NCBI GenBank assembly: GCA_039961735.1
Contig: JABRVX010000031.1
Span: forward strand, 1-64,000
Source: Fimbriimonadia bacterium
Lineage (GTDB): Bacteria > Armatimonadota > Fimbriimonadia > Fimbriimonadales > JABRVX01
Length of the DNA stretch: 64,000 nt
Direction of reading: 5' to 3'
Shown here: positions 20,557-61,164 of the stretch, piece by piece
Layout of the letters: each line of letters opens with the position of its first letter
Numbering within the stretch: position 1 is the first letter of the stretch
Translations under genes and position numbers: made by a program
Notes under the pieces: model-generated
Seen by the model: only the letters and a program-made list of their open reading frames with translations
Database searches by the model: none
What the model was told of the DNA's origin: nothing

Positions 20557-21876
20557 ATGCGCCACGTATTGTTTCTGCTTGCTGCCCTGTCGCTATTGAC
20601 CTTCGCGGGTTGTGGAGGCCAGAAGGGATCTGCGGAAGACGAGCTGGTCATCGTCTGGGCGAAGTGGGAGCCCGCAGACGCCTTGGCCAAGCTGTGCGAG
20701 AAGTACACGGAGGAGACCGGAAAGAAGGTCGTAGTGGAGCAAATCCCTTGGCAGAACTTCGGCGACAAGATCCGCAACGTGGTTTGGGCCGGGAAGAGCG
20801 CCGAGTATGACATCATCATCGGCGACAGCCAGTGGCTCGGGCAGGCCGTGACGCAAGGCCACTACGTAGACCTCACCGAGTGGATGGCGAAGGCAATCCG
20901 GCTTCGCGACATCTCACCCGAGGCGCTGAAGCTGTATGGCGAGTACCCTGCCGGATCTGGCAAATACTACGCGCTGCCTTGCGAGTTCGACGCAATCGGC
21001 TTCGCGTATCGCAAGGACAAGTTCGAGGACCCGAAGGAGCGGGAAGCGTTCAAAGCGAAGTACGGCTATGATCTGGCCCCGCCGAAGACCTGGACCCAGC
21101 TTCGGGACATCGCCGAGTTCTTCACCCGCCCGCAGCAGAACCTGTGGGGCGTTGCAGCCTACTACTCGAAGGGCTACGACGCGTTGACGATGGGCTTCCA
21201 GCAGATACTGTGGTGCTGGGGTGCGGATTGGGCCGACCCGACCACGGGCGATCCGGTGGGCGCTATCAATTCCAACAAGGCCGTCGAGGCGCTGAAATTC
21301 TACATAGACTTGAAGCGCTTCAACCCGATCGGCGCGGAGGACTACTACTTCGACGAGACGAAGAACGCGTTCAAGGAAGGCCTGGTAGTGATGGCGATGG
21401 AGTGGTACGCCTTCATGCCAGGGTTTGCCGACAAGCAGTACAACCCCTATGCCGACGTGACAGGGTACTTCGTTAGCCCCGGTGAGGTCGCACACGCGGT
21501 GTCGCTGGGTGGTCAAGGGATGTCCATATCCACCTACTCGAAGCGGCAGAGCGAAGCGAAGGAGTTCATGCAATGGTTTGCGAAGGAGGAGACGCAGCGG
21601 AAGTGGGCACAGCTAGGCGGACTGACTGCTAACGTGGTAGTGCTGCAAAGCGACGACTTCAAGAACGCGAAGCCATACAATCAGGCATTCAGTGATACGG
21701 CCGGGCTCCTGCGGGACTTCACGAACAACCCGGTCTACCAAGAAATGCTGGACGTGTCGCAGGAGAAGCTGCACGCTGCGATTACCGGGCAGCTCTCGCC
21801 TAAGGAATCACTGGACGCCATCGCTACAGCGCATCGCAAGATATTGGTCGACGCGGATCTCCTGAAAGCGAAGTAG
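20557..21876 (+). CDS. ABC transporter sugar-type solute-binding lipoprotein
   Basis: A 439-residue family 1 extracellular solute-binding protein. The lipobox is F-A-G-C with Cys19, then ELVIVWAKWEPADALAKLCEKYTEETGKKVVVEQIPWQNFGDKI, the usual start of the first lobe. Later segments (GDSQWLGQAVTQGHYVDLTEWM, VSLGGQGMSISTYSKRQSEAKEFMQWF) match maltose/oligosaccharide-type binding proteins. The ribosome site AAGGAGGAC is strong. It works with the fused permease 7 bases downstream and the ATPase at 23836. Substrate unknown but probably a carbohydrate. Confidence 0.92.
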   Translation: MRHVLFLLAALSLLTFAGCGGQKGSAEDELVIVWAKWEPADALAKLCEKYTEETGKKVVVEQIPWQNFGDKIRNVVWAGKSAEYDIIIGDSQWLGQAVTQGHYVDLTEWMAKAIRLRDISPEALKLYGEYPAGSGKYYALPCEFDAIGFAYRKDKFEDPKEREAFKAKYGYDLAPPKTWTQLRDIAEFFTRPQQNLWGVAAYYSKGYDALTMGFQQILWCWGADWADPTTGDPVGAINSNKAVEALKFYIDLKRFNPIGAEDYYFDETKNAFKEGLVVMAMEWYAFMPGFADKQYNPYADVTGYFVSPGEVAHAVSLGGQGMSISTYSKRQSEAKEFMQWFAKEETQRKWAQLGGLTANVVVLQSDDFKNAKPYNQAFSDTAGLLRDFTNNPVYQEMLDVSQEKLHAAITGQLSPKESLDAIATAHRKILVDADLLKAK

Positions 21877-21883
21877 GACGGGC

Positions 21884-23833
21884 TTGGCGACGATTCGAGC
21901 GTTCCGGATGGGCTTGGGCGACCGAGGGGTCGCCAACCTGTTCCTTGCACCTACGCTCGTCTTGCTCATTGCCATGAACGTGTTCCCGCTGTTCTGGTCG
22001 CTGTATCTCAGCTTCACGAAGTACCGCGCGGCGGGTCAGGATGCACCTGTGTGGATCGGCGGCGAGAACTACCGCGCCGTGTTCACCGACCCCGAGATGT
22101 GGGGCTACTTCGTCACGACGGCACAGATTGTGGTGCTATCGGTCATCGCGCAGTTCGTGATCGGGTTCGGAGTTGCGCTTCTGCTGAACCGGAAGTTCCG
22201 GGGGAAGGGTCTTGTCACCACACTACTCCTGCTGCCTATGATGCTCTCACCCGTGTTGGTGGGGTTGTTCTGGCGTTTCTTGCTCGACCCTAACTGGGGG
22301 CTGATCAACGTCGTGGCGGGCGTGCTGGGATACGAACCTAGCCTGTGGCTAATGGACCCCACGCGCGCAGTATGGTCGGTGGTAGCGGTGGACACTTGGA
22401 TGTGGTCGCCGTTCATCATGCTGGTTTCGCTGGCAGGGCTCTCCTCGGTGCCACGGCACCTGTACGAGGCCGCAGAGGTGGATCGGGCGACTGGGTGGTT
22501 CAAGTTCCGCTACATAACACTGCCCATCATCATGCCGCTGCTGTTAGTGGCTCTTCTGTTCCGAACGATGGATGCGTTCAAGATGTTCGATCTCGTTTTC
22601 GTGCTTACGAGCGGCGGGCCTGGCAGTGCGACCGAGACCGTGGCAATGCAGCTGTGGCGCCTCGCCTTTTCGCGACTCGATACGGGGAAGGCGTGCGCGC
22701 TTGCATACGTGGTTCTACTGATGATCATAGGACTGGCGAACCTGTACATACGCATGCTGAACCGAACGAGGGGCGAATCCAAACCGGATGCACGACCGTT
22801 GGTGTCAATCCCGGAGCGCATTCTGAACAACGCCTGGTTTGCGCGCCTGGAAGCATCGTGGCCGATGCTGATCCTCGGTGTGCTAGTGTTGTGGAACCTT
22901 GATACCGTGCTCGGCGCAATCGCTGTGTTGTTCCGACAACCCGTGGTTGGTGTTGCGGTGCTAGCCGTCTTGGTGGTAGCAGTAGTGGGTGGAATGAAGA
23001 TCCGCAACGTGCTTGCGTTCTTCGGCATCGCATGTGCGTTAGTCGTGTTTCTGTTCCCTCTCTATTGGATCGGCATCACATCCTTCAAGAATGACAAGGA
23101 TATCGTTACCAAGCCGCCACGCCTGGTCGCGCCGCTGACGCTGCGCCAATATGACAAGCTGTTGTTTCAGGGCGAGGGACGAAACAGGGAGATGACCGCA
23201 TATGTGAAGCAGGTGAGCAACAGCCTGATCGTAGGCGTGACCGCCACGGTGCTGGCAGTAGGATTGGGCGCGATGGCTGCCTATGCCTTGGCACGATTCC
23301 GTATCAAGGGCAAGAGCGACTGGCTCTTTTTCATCCTATCCACGCGCATGTTGCCACCCGTAGTGGTCGCCATCCCGATCTACCTGATGTACCGTACGCT
23401 GGGTCTGTTGGACACCCACATAGGGCTCATCCTGCTGTACACGGTGTTCAACCTGGCGTTCGCGGTGTGGCTTCTGAAGGGGTTCTTCGAAGAGATACCG
23501 GCGGAGCTGGAAGAAGCGGCGCTGCTCGATGGGTACTCACGGCTGCGCGCTTTTCGACTGGTGACGATGCCTCAGGTGCTGCCCGGCATAGCGGCCACGG
23601 CGGTATTCTGCTTTATCACGGCATGGAACGAGTTCGCCTTCGCCCTGTTCCTCACCAGCCGGGCTGCGCTGACCGCTCCGCCGGGACTGCAGACCCGCGT
23701 CGGCTCGGGTGGGTTGGAATGGGGCGTGATCGCCGCGGGTACGCTGCTGTTCCTGCTGCCGGTGGCGATCTTCACGTTTCTGCTTCGGAATCACCTCCTA
23801 CGGGGGGTCACGTTCGGGGCGATCAAGAGGTAG
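21884..23833 (+). CDS. ABC importer permease, fusion of MalF-type and MalG-type subunits
   Basis: A 649-residue protein holding two complete carbohydrate ABC permeases in one chain. The first half has TM helices and an EAA loop (YEAAEVDRATGWFKFRYITLP, near residue 195). The second has a second set with EEAALLDGYSRLRAFRLVTMPQ near residue 542. The linker, about residues 280-400, carries extra hydrophobic segments (WPMLILGVLVLWNL, VVGVAVLAVLVVAVVGG), which put the second half in the right topology. Normally these are separate genes. There is no stop or frameshift between the halves. TTG 21884 has a weak GGACGGG site; ATG 21908 is an alternative start. Confidence 0.9.
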   Translation: MATIRAFRMGLGDRGVANLFLAPTLVLLIAMNVFPLFWSLYLSFTKYRAAGQDAPVWIGGENYRAVFTDPEMWGYFVTTAQIVVLSVIAQFVIGFGVALLLNRKFRGKGLVTTLLLLPMMLSPVLVGLFWRFLLDPNWGLINVVAGVLGYEPSLWLMDPTRAVWSVVAVDTWMWSPFIMLVSLAGLSSVPRHLYEAAEVDRATGWFKFRYITLPIIMPLLLVALLFRTMDAFKMFDLVFVLTSGGPGSATETVAMQLWRLAFSRLDTGKACALAYVVLLMIIGLANLYIRMLNRTRGESKPDARPLVSIPERILNNAWFARLEASWPMLILGVLVLWNLDTVLGAIAVLFRQPVVGVAVLAVLVVAVVGGMKIRNVLAFFGIACALVVFLFPLYWIGITSFKNDKDIVTKPPRLVAPLTLRQYDKLLFQGEGRNREMTAYVKQVSNSLIVGVTATVLAVGLGAMAAYALARFRIKGKSDWLFFILSTRMLPPVVVAIPIYLMYRTLGLLDTHIGLILLYTVFNLAFAVWLLKGFFEEIPAELEEAALLDGYSRLRAFRLVTMPQVLPGIAATAVFCFITAWNEFAFALFLTSRAALTAPPGLQTRVGSGGLEWGVIAAGTLLFLLPVAIFTFLLRNHLLRGVTFGAIKR

Positions 23834-23835
23834 CG

Positions 23836-24915
23836 ATGGCGGAAGTTCGGGTCGAGAACCTGACCAAGAGATTCGACAACGTGGTGGCGGTGAGAAACCT
23901 GTCGCTGACGGTGAACGACGGCGAGTTCGTGGTATTCCTCGGGCCGTCGGGATGCGGCAAGACGACTACCCTGCGCTGCATCGCCGGTCTCGAGATCCCG
24001 GACGGCGGGGAGATTCGCATCGGCGACGACGTGGTGACCAATCTGCCGCCCGCCATGAGGGACATCGCGTTCGTTTTCCAGCAGTATGCACTTTACCCAC
24101 ACCTCACGGTCTTCGACAATCTGGCATTCCCACTGCGGGCCACGCGAACGCCGAAGGACGTGATCGCGAGAAGAGTGCAAGAAGTAGCCAAAATCTTGCG
24201 CATTGAACGGGTCCTTGAGCGGCGACCTAGCAAGATCTCCGGCGGCGAGATGCAGCGAGTCGCTATAGGTCGAGCGATGGTGAGGCGGCCCAAGGTGTTC
24301 CTGATGGACGAGCCGCTGACGAACCTGGACGCAAAGCTGCGGATGGAGATGCGGACCGAGCTAAAGCGGCTTCAGGCGGATCAGCAGGCGACAACGGTGT
24401 ACGTGACCCACGACCAGGTGGAAGCGATGTCCATGGGCGACCGCGTGGCGGTCATCAATGAGGGGCGTCTGCTGCAGTTCGGGACGCCAGGCGAGGTATA
24501 CGACCACCCCCGAGACATGTTCGTTGCTGGCTTCATCGGCAGCCCCGCGATGAACATGATCCCCTGCAGCGTGGAGGACGGGCACATTGCGCTGTCGGGC
24601 GGCGAGGCAATGTCGCTGTCGAGCGCGCCATCACGCTTCCGCGACCTACCGCGCGAAGCAAACCTCGTGCTCGGGGCTCGGCCTGAGGACGTTGCTCTTT
24701 CCACCGAGCCGGCGAAGGAGTTCCTGCAAGGCGAGGTGTACGTCGTGGAGCCGCTCGGCTCGGAGAACATCATAGACGTTCGCCTCGCGGGGCACCTTCT
24801 GAAGGCGCGGACGCCGCCCACGTTCCTGGTCAAGACGGGGCAACCGATCTATGTTCGGGTGGACTTGGAACGGGCGCACATCTTCGACCCTACTACCCAA
24901 GAGGCGTTGTTCTAG
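23836..24915 (+). CDS. ABC transporter ATP-binding protein, MalK/UgpC type
   Basis: A 359-residue ATPase. Walker A GPSGCGKTT is at residues 36-44, a Q-loop in FVFQQYALYPHLTV, signature SGGEMQRVAIGRA, Walker B VFLMDEPLTNLD and switch His in VYVTHDQVEAMSMGD. A C-terminal TOBE-type domain contains LGARPEDV and YVVEPLGSENIIDVRL. It powers the importer encoded just upstream. MalK-type ATPases can serve several importers, so it may also energise the ATPase-less system at 57356-61164. ATG 23836 follows the permease stop by 2 bases. Confidence 0.95.
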   Translation: MAEVRVENLTKRFDNVVAVRNLSLTVNDGEFVVFLGPSGCGKTTTLRCIAGLEIPDGGEIRIGDDVVTNLPPAMRDIAFVFQQYALYPHLTVFDNLAFPLRATRTPKDVIARRVQEVAKILRIERVLERRPSKISGGEMQRVAIGRAMVRRPKVFLMDEPLTNLDAKLRMEMRTELKRLQADQQATTVYVTHDQVEAMSMGDRVAVINEGRLLQFGTPGEVYDHPRDMFVAGFIGSPAMNMIPCSVEDGHIALSGGEAMSLSSAPSRFRDLPREANLVLGARPEDVALSTEPAKEFLQGEVYVVEPLGSENIIDVRLAGHLLKARTPPTFLVKTGQPIYVRVDLERAHIFDPTTQEALF

Positions 24916-57270: not shown

Positions 57271-57297
57271 GGGCTCGCCCCTCGACGGGGCGAGCCC
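57271..57297 (+). terminator. Terminator hairpin after the barrel protein gene
   Basis: GGGCTCGCCCC and GGGGCGAGCCC form a perfect 11-bp stem with a TCGAC loop, followed by GTTGTCTTT. Confidence 0.75.
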
Positions 57298-57355: not shown

Positions 57356-59797
57356 ATGAAATGGCTGCTGCTCGCCGGTGGGCTGTTGGTCGCCTTCTGG
57401 ATCACGGCTATGGCGTTGCGACCGCCGGAAGCTGGCCCTGGTGTAATCAAGCTGCGCGTATGGGGCATGAGCCTGGGGGAGGAAGACAAGGGCTTCGCGG
57501 CGCAGATCCGCGAGTTCGAACGCAGAAACCCCGGCATCGAGGTCTCGGTGCTCTCGATGGGCGCGGGGGCCATGAACCCCCAGAAGCTCCTGACGGCCAT
57601 CGTCGGCAAGTCGCCCCCTGATCTCGTCTTCCAAGACCGCTTCACCATCGGCGACTGGGCAAGTCGTGGCGCGTTCGAACCTCTCGATGACCTGTTGGAA
57701 AGAGACCGAGACGACCCAATGTGCCCGCGGCAGGAAGACTACTACCCGGCGACCTGGAGTGAAGCCGTCTACAGGGGCAAGGTGTACGCGATCCCGGCGG
57801 GGACGGACGACCGGGCGCTCTACTGGAATCGAGAGGTCTTTCGACAAGCCGCTCCGAGGCTGCGTAAAGCCGGGCTGGACCCGACCCGCCCACCGAGAAC
57901 CTGGTCCGAGCTCAAAGCCTACGCGCTGGCGCTGACCGAGCGGCGACCGGACGGCACGTTCAAGCGCATCGGCTTCATCCCGAACTTCGGGAACTCGTGG
58001 CTGTACCTCTACTCGTGGCAGATGAACGGAGAGTTCATGTCGCCGGACGGGAAGACGTGCACGCTGGACAATCCACGCACGCGGAAGGCCCTGGAGTTCA
58101 TGGTCGAGATGTATGACATGCTCGGCGGTATCGAGCGAATCGAGGGCTTCGTATCGGGCTTTCAAGGGAACGAGTTGGACCCTTTCCTCACGGGCAAGCT
58201 GGCGATGAAGATCGACGGGAGCTGGTCGCTTGGGCACATCGCACGATATCGTCCCACGCTCGATTTCGGTGTCGCGCCCGCGCCGGTACCGGACGATCGC
58301 TATTACCGACGCGGCGAGTTCCGCGATGAGAAGGACACCTTCATCACCTGGGGCGGCGGCTTCTCCTACGCGATCCCCACTGGCTCGAAGAATGTAGAGG
58401 CCGCTTGGAAGTTCATCAAGTGGATGACCAGCCCGGAGTCGGCTGTGCTGGACGTGCGGGTGCAGGGTGAGTACTACGCGAGCCTCGGACGCATCAATGT
58501 GATGACGTTCCGCGCCAACCGGATTGCCACCGAACGCCTCTACCGTGAGTTCCGGCCCGAGTCGGAGAACCTGGCTGCGGGCCTGCGACAGTTTATCGAT
58601 CTGCTGCCGACCGCGCGGTTCCGCCCCGTGACATTCGTCGGGCAGAAGCTATGGGATGAGCATGTGCGCGCGTTCGACCAAGCCGTGCGCCACGTGCAGA
58701 CACCCGAGGACGCATTGCGCAACGGCCGTCTCGCCGTGCAGAGAGAGCTGGACAGGGTGTCGGAGATCGAGCGGTATCCAGAGGTGCCCGCTGCAGCGAT
58801 AGACTTGGTGGCGGGTCTCGTGATCGGCGGCGTGCTGGGTGGGATCGTGTTCGCGTTGTTGAGGGTTCGTCGAATGAGCCGACTCGCGCGGGGAGAGGCG
58901 CTGGCGGGCTATGCGTTTATCACCCCTTGGGTGCTCGGGTTCGTGTGTTTCACGGCGGGGCCGATTCTCGTCTCCATCCTACTCAGCTTCTGTCACTACG
59001 ATGCGATGCACCCTGCCAGGTGGGTGGGTACGGCCAACTACTCCGAGCTGTTCACTTCGGATTGGGCGAAGTTCGGGAAGGCGGCATATAACGTCTTCTA
59101 CCTGGCAGTGATCGGCGTGCCGCTCAACCTCGTGACGGGGCTCGCGATTGCCATGCTGTTGAACACCGGCGTGCGTGGCATGACGGTGTATCGCACGGGG
59201 TTCTACATCCCGGCGGTAGCACCCATCGTGGCTGCCGGCGTGCTGTGGGCGTGGGTGCTCTCGGGCGATCCGGAGAAGGGGCTCCTGAATGCAGCACTGA
59301 GAGTGGTATGGTCGGGTGAACTGCCAGGGTGGCTTTCTTCTGCGACGTGGTCGAAGCCGGCTCTGATCGTGATGGGCCTGTGGGGTGCGGGCGGTGGAAT
59401 GGTGCTGTGGTTGGCGGGACTTCAGGGCGTACCGAAGCAGTTGTACGAAGCCGCCCGCATAGACGGAGCGAACTCCTGGCAATGCTTCCGAAAGATCACT
59501 CTCCCACAGATATCGCCCTATCTGTTCTTCAATGTGATCATGGGTTCCATCGGTGCGCTGCAGGAATTCGACAGAATCTACATCATGCGCCCTCCCGGCT
59601 CCGAGGGTGTGGGGCCGGTGGACAGCCTACTGGTGCCGGTGTTCTATCTGTTCGACAACGGCTTCAAGTACTTTCGCATGGGGTATGCGTCCTCGATTGC
59701 GTGGGTGCTGTTCGTGGTAGTTCTGGCGCTCACGGTGATCCAACTCAAGCTCGCGCCGCGCTGGGTGTACTATGAGGGGGCGAGGGCTAAGGAATGA
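57356..59797 (+). CDS. ABC importer: solute-binding protein fused to MalF-type permease
   Basis: An 813-residue fusion. An uncleaved-looking N-terminal anchor (WLLLAGGLLVAFWITAMAL) is followed by a complete family 1 solute-binding domain, about residues 30-460 (VIKLRVWGMSLGEEDKGFAAQIREFERRNPGIEV ... VEAAWKFIKWMTSPES). Then come a helix at about 482-503 and a permease from about 515 with some six TM helices and the EAA loop YEAARIDGANSWQCFRKITLPQ near residue 698. The two parts are normally separate proteins. The stop overlaps the next permease by 4 bases. Sugar import is likely. Confidence 0.9.
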   Translation: MKWLLLAGGLLVAFWITAMALRPPEAGPGVIKLRVWGMSLGEEDKGFAAQIREFERRNPGIEVSVLSMGAGAMNPQKLLTAIVGKSPPDLVFQDRFTIGDWASRGAFEPLDDLLERDRDDPMCPRQEDYYPATWSEAVYRGKVYAIPAGTDDRALYWNREVFRQAAPRLRKAGLDPTRPPRTWSELKAYALALTERRPDGTFKRIGFIPNFGNSWLYLYSWQMNGEFMSPDGKTCTLDNPRTRKALEFMVEMYDMLGGIERIEGFVSGFQGNELDPFLTGKLAMKIDGSWSLGHIARYRPTLDFGVAPAPVPDDRYYRRGEFRDEKDTFITWGGGFSYAIPTGSKNVEAAWKFIKWMTSPESAVLDVRVQGEYYASLGRINVMTFRANRIATERLYREFRPESENLAAGLRQFIDLLPTARFRPVTFVGQKLWDEHVRAFDQAVRHVQTPEDALRNGRLAVQRELDRVSEIERYPEVPAAAIDLVAGLVIGGVLGGIVFALLRVRRMSRLARGEALAGYAFITPWVLGFVCFTAGPILVSILLSFCHYDAMHPARWVGTANYSELFTSDWAKFGKAAYNVFYLAVIGVPLNLVTGLAIAMLLNTGVRGMTVYRTGFYIPAVAPIVAAGVLWAWVLSGDPEKGLLNAALRVVWSGELPGWLSSATWSKPALIVMGLWGAGGGMVLWLAGLQGVPKQLYEAARIDGANSWQCFRKITLPQISPYLFFNVIMGSIGALQEFDRIYIMRPPGSEGVGPVDSLLVPVFYLFDNGFKYFRMGYASSIAWVLFVVVLALTVIQLKLAPRWVYYEGARAKE

Positions 59798-61164
59798 CGC
59801 TCCACAGCGCCCTTATACCCGTAACCTCGCTGTTCCTCGTGTTCGCTCTTTGGTTGACGGGGTGGGCCGGCATCGGGTGTAGGGGAATTATCGGCCGATG
59901 GAGTTGGGTGTTCCTCGTCTTCGGGTCGATGGGAGTCGTGCTGGTGACAGCGGCGCTAGGGGTATTAGTATCATCGCCGCCAGGCGAGCCTGCTCGGTTC
60001 GGATACTCGATCCACACACAAGGAAAGAGCTACGCGATCCTCGTGGCGGTCGGTTCGTTGATGCTGTTAGGCACACTCTTCGGCGCACTCTTTGCGGGCA
60101 TGAGGTCGCGCAGGGGCTTGCATGCGACCCGGGGCGCTGCGAGAGACAGCCTGCTGCATATCGTACTCACGGCCGGTTTGGTAGTCTTCGGTATCCCCTT
60201 CGCATGGCTGGTCGTTACGTCGTTCAAGGAAGACGTGGACATGGCGAAAGTACCCCCGGTGTGGGTGCCTCGCGTTCAGCAGTACGTACAGATCGAGGGA
60301 CGCCGGGCGGCGCTCGTAACAGGCGAGTACCGGGGTACGAAGTTCAAGGGCGCAGCGGTCCGTGAGTTTGCGGACGGACGTCGTACCATCCAGATTCTCG
60401 AGCCGGAAAGGCTTGCGGGAACGCGATTCACTGCGCGCACCGGAGACACCGAGAACGTTCGCGAAGTGGGCTTGAAGTGGGAGAACTACGCTCGCGCGGT
60501 TCGCAGCCTGCCAGAGGAGACCGTATACGGCACCGTGTACGTGTTCAACACACTTCTCCTAGTTGCGTTGAACATGGCAGGTACATTGCTTTCCAGCTCC
60601 ATCGTGGGCTATGCCTTCGCACGACTGCGCTTTCCAGGACGGGATGCCATCTTTCTCATGTTACTGGCGACGCTGATGTTGCCGGGGGCAGTGACTATGC
60701 TACCCGTGTTCCTCATCTTCCGTTCGCTCGGATGGGTGGATACGCTGTATCCGCTATGGGTGCCATCGCTGTTCGGTTCGGCGTTCAACATCTTCCTGCT
60801 ACGGCAGTTCTTCCTAACCGTGCCTATGGAGTTGGAGGAGGCCGCGAGGATTGATGGGTGCGGCTACGTACAGACGTACTGGTCTATCATGCTGCCACAG
60901 GTGCGGCCCGCGCTGGCAGCCGTAGCCATCTGGACGTTCACGGGGACGTGGAACAACTTCATGGGGCCGCTGATCTACATCAACTCACCGGAGCGAATGC
61001 CCGTCTCCTATGCGCTGCAGCTCTTCCAGAGTGCCCACGGAGGGGACCCTGGCGCTCTCATGGCTGCTACTACCATGGTCATGCTACCGGTCGTGCTGGT
61101 GTTCTTCTTTGCTCAGCGATACTTCATCGAGGGTGTTACCCTCACGGGCATGGGGGGGCGGTAG
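59794..61164 (+). CDS. MalG-type ABC permease with long N-terminal and periplasmic extensions
   Basis: A 456-residue permease, well above the usual 270-300. About 110 residues of extra TM helices (TSLFLVFALWLTGWAGIG, VFLVFGSMGVVLVTAALGVLV, SYAILVAVGSLMLLGTLFGALF) precede the canonical first helix. An 85-residue soluble insertion (WVPRVQQYVQIEGRRAALVTGEYRG ... LKWENYARAVRSLP) sits before the core, which has the EAA loop EEAARIDGCGYVQTYWSIMLPQ near residue 348. Partner of the fused subunit at 57356. No ATPase gene follows. Confidence 0.9.
   Translation: MTLHSALIPVTSLFLVFALWLTGWAGIGCRGIIGRWSWVFLVFGSMGVVLVTAALGVLVSSPPGEPARFGYSIHTQGKSYAILVAVGSLMLLGTLFGALFAGMRSRRGLHATRGAARDSLLHIVLTAGLVVFGIPFAWLVVTSFKEDVDMAKVPPVWVPRVQQYVQIEGRRAALVTGEYRGTKFKGAAVREFADGRRTIQILEPERLAGTRFTARTGDTENVREVGLKWENYARAVRSLPEETVYGTVYVFNTLLLVALNMAGTLLSSSIVGYAFARLRFPGRDAIFLMLLATLMLPGAVTMLPVFLIFRSLGWVDTLYPLWVPSLFGSAFNIFLLRQFFLTVPMELEEAARIDGCGYVQTYWSIMLPQVRPALAAVAIWTFTGTWNNFMGPLIYINSPERMPVSYALQLFQSAHGGDPGALMAATTMVMLPVVLVFFFAQRYFIEGVTLTGMGGR

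Follow-up and report, generated by a model that had tools for sequence, protein, structure and literature searches.

The window, a 64,000-nucleotide stretch of an Armatimonadota contig, carries toward its end two overlapping genes that encode the membrane part of a putative carbohydrate ABC importer, in which a solute-binding domain and a MalF-type permease form one polypeptide and a MalG-type permease follows as a separate protein. The features of this pair, together with the gene of a MalK-type ATPase elsewhere in the window, are as follows:

23836..24915, +, MalK-type ATPase from the complete importer nearby, disfavoured as partner of the fusion (Pfam, identity comparison)
57271..57297, +, terminator-like hairpin (11 pairs) separating the fusion from the gene upstream of it
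57356..59797, +, MalE-MalF fusion protein, 813 aa (open reading frame, Pfam, orthologs, AlphaFold2 model)
57356..57415, +, hydrophobic helix at the N-terminus, aa 1-20, either a signal anchor or a signal peptide (model helix 2-20; N-termini of 80 orthologs)
57446..58774, +, solute-binding domain, aa 31-473, CUT1-type SBP_bac_1 (Pfam, structure and profile matches)
58790..58870, +, linker transmembrane helix, aa 479-505 (AlphaFold2 model; seen in 80/80 aligned orthologs)
58880..59764, +, MalF-type permease domain, aa 509-803 (Pfam, homologs, AlphaFold2 model)
59447..59506, +, EAA (ATPase-coupling) loop of the MalF half, EAARIDGANSWQCFRKITLP (sequence)
59794..61164, +, MalG-type permease that partners the fusion, 456 aa (its start and the fusion stop overlap by ATGA)
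59794..60102, +, extended N-terminus of MalG, aa 1-103, with additional helices; relatives have it in variable form or lack it (alignment and model)
60271..60468, +, insertion beta-domain of MalG, aa 160-225, in the periplasmic loop between core TM1 and TM2 (AlphaFold2 model; modular in orthologs)
60838..60897, +, EAA (ATPase-coupling) loop of MalG, EAARIDGCGYVQTYWSIMLP (sequence)

Architecture of the fusion and its relation to known importers

The open reading frame at 57356-59797 runs on the plus strand for 813 aa with no internal stop, and Pfam placed within it an SBP_bac_1 domain at aa 44-363 (E = 1.4e-43) and a BPD_transp_1 domain at aa 593-802 (E = 5e-14); the 456-aa partner, encoded on the same strand at 59794-61164, has BPD_transp_1 at aa 270-445 (E = 3e-18). 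This domain search of both proteins and the AlphaFold2 models, for which ortholog alignments of the fusion and of MalG served as input, agree with a first-pass annotation made from the letters of the DNA, which had described a solute-binding domain joined to a MalF-type permease by one transmembrane helix. In the model of the fusion, the binding domain is folded (pLDDT >90 in most blocks) and ends in a helix at aa 450-473, the linker transmembrane helix occupies aa 479-505, and the MalF helices start at 509. As the gap between the last helix of the binding domain and the linker helix amounts to ~5 residues, the tether is short, and the view that the binding domain is tethered in one copy per MalF was upheld. 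We looked for an RNA element around the two genes and found none, and the count of terminator-like hairpin sites in the region was not above that in shuffled sequences.

The best structural matches of the binding domain are sugar-binding proteins: its closest solved relatives are the oligosaccharide-binding proteins CpMnBP1 (4R9F), a mannan-binding protein and the nearest solved structure, and GacH, and those of the permease are of the SugA/MalF/UgpA type. With an SBP_bac_1-type binding domain and a MalF/MalG-type permease pair whose EAA loops are complete in both halves, the mechanism is, judging from these sequences, most likely that of an ordinary CUT1-type (MalFGK2-type) carbohydrate importer.

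Comparison with known importers brings out what sets this one apart. E. coli MalFGK2-MalE has, like the window, a MalF/MalG heterodimer with EAA loops, and it works with a MalK-type ATPase, as the window pair probably does, but MalE is there a free periplasmic protein, whereas the binding domain of the window is fused. In structure comparison, the MalG model came closest to the mycobacterial trehalose importer LpqY-SugABC, which is also the source of the best solved relative of the MalF half; unlike in the window, LpqY is a separate lipoprotein and no fusion occurs. Binding domains fused to a permease are found in the amino-acid and osmolyte importers GlnPQ and OpuA, which carry two or more of them per transporter. 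These belong to other importer families, whereas the window encodes a heterodimer with one binding domain.

Conservation and origin of the fusion in Armatimonadota

The first-pass annotation had proposed a survey of related genomes for the same fusion, and at least 139 of 251 Armatimonadota genomes, from many families and with Chthonomonas and Fimbriimonadaceae among the named relatives, proved positive. Their orthologs are in a single frame and of full or near-full length (E at most 4e-216), mostly 48-63% identical to the window protein, and present in two or three copies in some genomes. Because of these single-frame matches, we consider the fusion real, and a frameshift or assembly error is ruled out. 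The notion that it arose from faulty assembly or sequencing, or by accident in a single strain, for which we found no supporting point, has a practically negligible probability in view of this breadth and of the linker helix, which is there in every aligned ortholog.

In an alignment of 80 orthologs, the binding domain had a mean pairwise identity of 55% and MalF one of 61%. The linker helix reached ~18% but varied little in length, with 43-48 residues over a fixed 46-column span and a best 19-residue hydropathy of 1.5-3.0. The binding domain is conserved almost as much as the channel, which suggests a single substrate type throughout the phylum. As the alignment presents it, a linker helix of fixed length and free sequence is new here, as is the phylum-wide conservation of the MalE-MalF fusion. 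The N-termini vary: a lipobox pattern search gave matches in 30 of the 80, some of them false, and the others have plain signal peptides or, the window protein included, an apparent uncleaved anchor. In one genome (G081; L074:6713-12370), a stop interrupts the fusion ortholog, and nearby lies a MalF/MalG pair without fusion, with 48% and 40% identity to its window counterparts and no binding protein adjoining.

Among the structural matches is PDB 6FFL, by its title a MalE domain from Bdellovibrio bacteriovorus, an entry that presumably belongs to the work of Licht and colleagues. That work (Licht et al. 2019, Res Microbiol 170:1-12), as cited in PMC7756565 and PMC9045158, concerns a maltose/maltodextrin importer in which a single MalE domain is fused to MalF, and in PMC7756565 it is cited for the transport competence of the fused protein. 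Insofar as these citations and 6FFL describe it, the Bdellovibrio-type fusion provides a precedent for an architecture that had been taken as undescribed, since it likewise has a family-1 binding domain N-terminal to MalF, one per transporter; the domain layout is known but rare. Set beside it, the window system has a MalG with a modular extra domain and an ATPase encoded elsewhere. The fusion studied here looks independent of that in Bdellovibrio, because its binding domain is closer to the free-standing CpMnBP1 (1.9e-35) and many others than to 6FFL (1.6e-10), which is absent from the profile matches of the binding domain at 1e-20. Common descent of the two fusions is unsupported on the same comparison.

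The MalF tree unites the orthologs with the fusion of a second system in the same genome, C18, in one group (98/97) that has the unfused MalF of G081 inside it, and in the tree of binding domains the one from C18 joins the separate C42 protein (99/99). From this different grouping of the C18 fusion in the two trees, repeated fusion or domain exchange is probable; the C41 fusion, a long branch, is of unsure placement. We also considered a wide occurrence outside Armatimonadota and rejected it, as MalE and MalF are encoded by separate genes in the closest outside matches (Paenibacillus, Ignavibacteria, Kosmotogales), and in the plasmid records examined the genes are likewise separate, with no MalE-MalF fusion. 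The fusion can be regarded as a core, phylum-wide importer design rather than a curiosity, and one apparently reached more than once.

Two further loci of the same genome deserve mention. The C18 fusion importer (L066:4225-10882) lies beside a LacI-type regulator and a protein in which rhamnosidase/amyloglucosidase-like and carbohydrate-binding domains are weakly recognisable, and these neighbours make it, in contrast to the window pair, a probable dedicated sugar locus. C41 (L065:6208-8649) is a third MalE-MalF-type fusion with no MalG adjoining, and C3 (L069:7727-9898) is a lone MalG with a large soluble insertion of ~300 aa after the first membrane helix; the two may be a split pair.

Candidate ATPases for the importer

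No ABC ATPase gene adjoins the fusion/MalG pair, which upheld the earlier conclusion that the ATPase is encoded elsewhere. The genome encodes two ATPases with an OB_MalK domain, one at 23836 in the window and one on contig C30. The latter is an orphan, with a RidA-like gene adjoining, no permease near and no linkage to the fusion in this genome, and its orthologs occur in 208 of the 251 Armatimonadota genomes, mostly one per genome. Relatives in which a MalK gene lies next to the fusion permitted a comparison of the two candidates. In L097 (genome G216), MalK belongs to the same operon as the fusion and MalG, and no other MalK match was obtained from this genome at E<=1e-50; in L070 (genome G019), MalK lies just upstream of the fusion, with an apparent frameshift near residue 294. 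Both fusion-linked MalKs are 60-65% identical to the C30 MalK and 45-50% to the ATPase at 23836. In the MalK tree, the C30-type group is weakly held (85/81) and 23836 is a long branch. At the same threshold, the fusion-bearing genomes G239, G006 and G035 (93, 80 and 69% complete) gave no MalK match, which could be due to assembly gaps or to another ATPase.

Shared sugar ATPases are established in MsmX (PMC7658222) and in MsmK of A. bescii (PMC11212667), which, like the C30 MalK, are orphan MalK-type ATPases, and which serve several sugar importers without one of their own. We scored the four MsmX signature residues D77, R104, E110 and K154 (positions from PMC7658222). The C30 MalK has three of the four (D77, R104, K154), with Ser in place of E110, a position at which one Asp exception is noted in the multitask signature (PMC7658222), and the ATPase at 23836 has two. 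Three further sugar importers of the genome, C18 (fusion and MalG), C41 (fusion alone) and C42, have no MalK adjoining; from these several CUT1 systems lacking their own MalK, we infer that the C30 MalK may be a multitasking ATPase.

The first-pass annotation had put forward the ATPase at 23836 as the motor, and in favor of this it is a MalK-type protein with OB/TOBE domains, it is encoded on the same contig as the fusion, and multitask ATPases do exist (PMC7658222). Its operon, however, already supplies it with a binding protein of its own (20557) and with a permease in which MalF and MalG are fused (21884), and both its identity to the fusion-linked MalKs and its count of signature residues are lower than those of the C30 orphan, making it improbable that 23836 drives the fusion importer. 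The orphan C30 MalK is the likelier ATPase, a pairing that we base on the gene neighborhoods and sequence comparisons above. The importer at 20557-24915 is complete, with MalF and MalG fused as a 649-aa protein in addition to its own binding protein and MalK, and 3' of it lie genes of the aromatic amino acid lyase family (25339) and the arginase family (26922).

The missing ATPase gene could also be read as a sign that the fusion/MalG pair is a sugar sensor or another non-transport device that needs no ATPase, a reading with which the very conserved binding domain would agree, as would the relatives inspected, in which no catabolic genes are evident beside the pair. Yet the EAA loops, which are known to dock the ATPase, are intact in both halves, and the fusion operon of L097 includes a MalK, so that we regard a non-transport device as very improbable.

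We are fairly confident of a working model in which the locus encodes a CUT1-type sugar importer whose binding domain is tethered and whose MalK is shared and encoded elsewhere, most likely on C30, with the complex, the identity of the ATPase, the substrate and the role of the loop deduced rather than observed. In this model, the periplasmic N-terminal domain of MalF would capture the sugar, one helix would hold this domain directly over the MalF/MalG channel, and each transporter would have exactly one binding domain. The EAA loops of both permease halves would dock a MalK dimer encoded elsewhere, most likely that from contig C30, which would also serve the other ATPase-less sugar importers of the genome. 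The beta-domain in the first MalG loop, judging by its position and by structure prediction, would probably contact or orient the tethered domain. With a probable shared ATPase named, sugar uptake in Armatimonadota becomes testable with one gene knockout.

The modular loop of MalG

In the AlphaFold2 model of MalG, the core TM1 helix (108-143) is preceded by a pair of additional helices at the N-terminus (8-60 and 77-103, of low confidence), and residues 160-225 form a confident all-beta domain of 66 residues (pLDDT ~94-98), to which a Pfam scan assigned no family. Extra helices and an 85-residue insertion had been reported at first reading; the insertion is real, but its size is better described as a ~66-residue beta-domain plus flanks.

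The loop takes several forms among 64 orthologs: it is absent in 4 (L005, L102, L104, L127), consists of one unit in 29, the window included, and of two tandem units in 25, and is occupied by an unrelated domain of ~290 aa in the remaining 6. The unit measures ~60 aa, with ~25% identity of the orthologs to that of the window. A profile of the one-unit loops matched each two-unit loop twice, at 10 to 52 bits per domain (best shuffled score in the control, 8.4), and did not match the ~290-aa domain. The insertion is missing from the MalG of separate-gene relatives and from that of the C18 fusion system. We found no description of such a modular MalG loop, which is new here.

That the beta-domain is neutral filler and contributes nothing to transport would fit its absence in 4 of the 64 orthologs, its replacement by an unrelated domain in 6 and its weak conservation. 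We nevertheless consider this unlikely, as the domain folds confidently in the model, is retained in most orthologs and is doubled as a recognisable tandem repeat in 25 of them. A more specific proposal, possible though somewhat doubtful at present, extends the suggested contact with the tethered domain: the loop would be a dedicated, exchangeable docking or gating module for that domain, a mirror of the P2 loop of E. coli MalF, and would have arisen through duplication in tandem and replacement of entire domains. E. coli has its large P2 loop in MalF, whereas the extra domain of the window sits at the mirror position in MalG; we claim no homology between the two. If true, such a docking module would be a new way to control an importer with a tethered binding domain, in Armatimonadota. 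Well over 100 natural orthologs, in which the loop has no unit, one unit, two units or another domain, provide material to test the cooperation between a tethered binding domain and the permease loops. The unrelated ~290-aa domain, to which Pfam assigned no family in L115, L116, L123 and L128, occupies the loop in these four and in L011 and L124.
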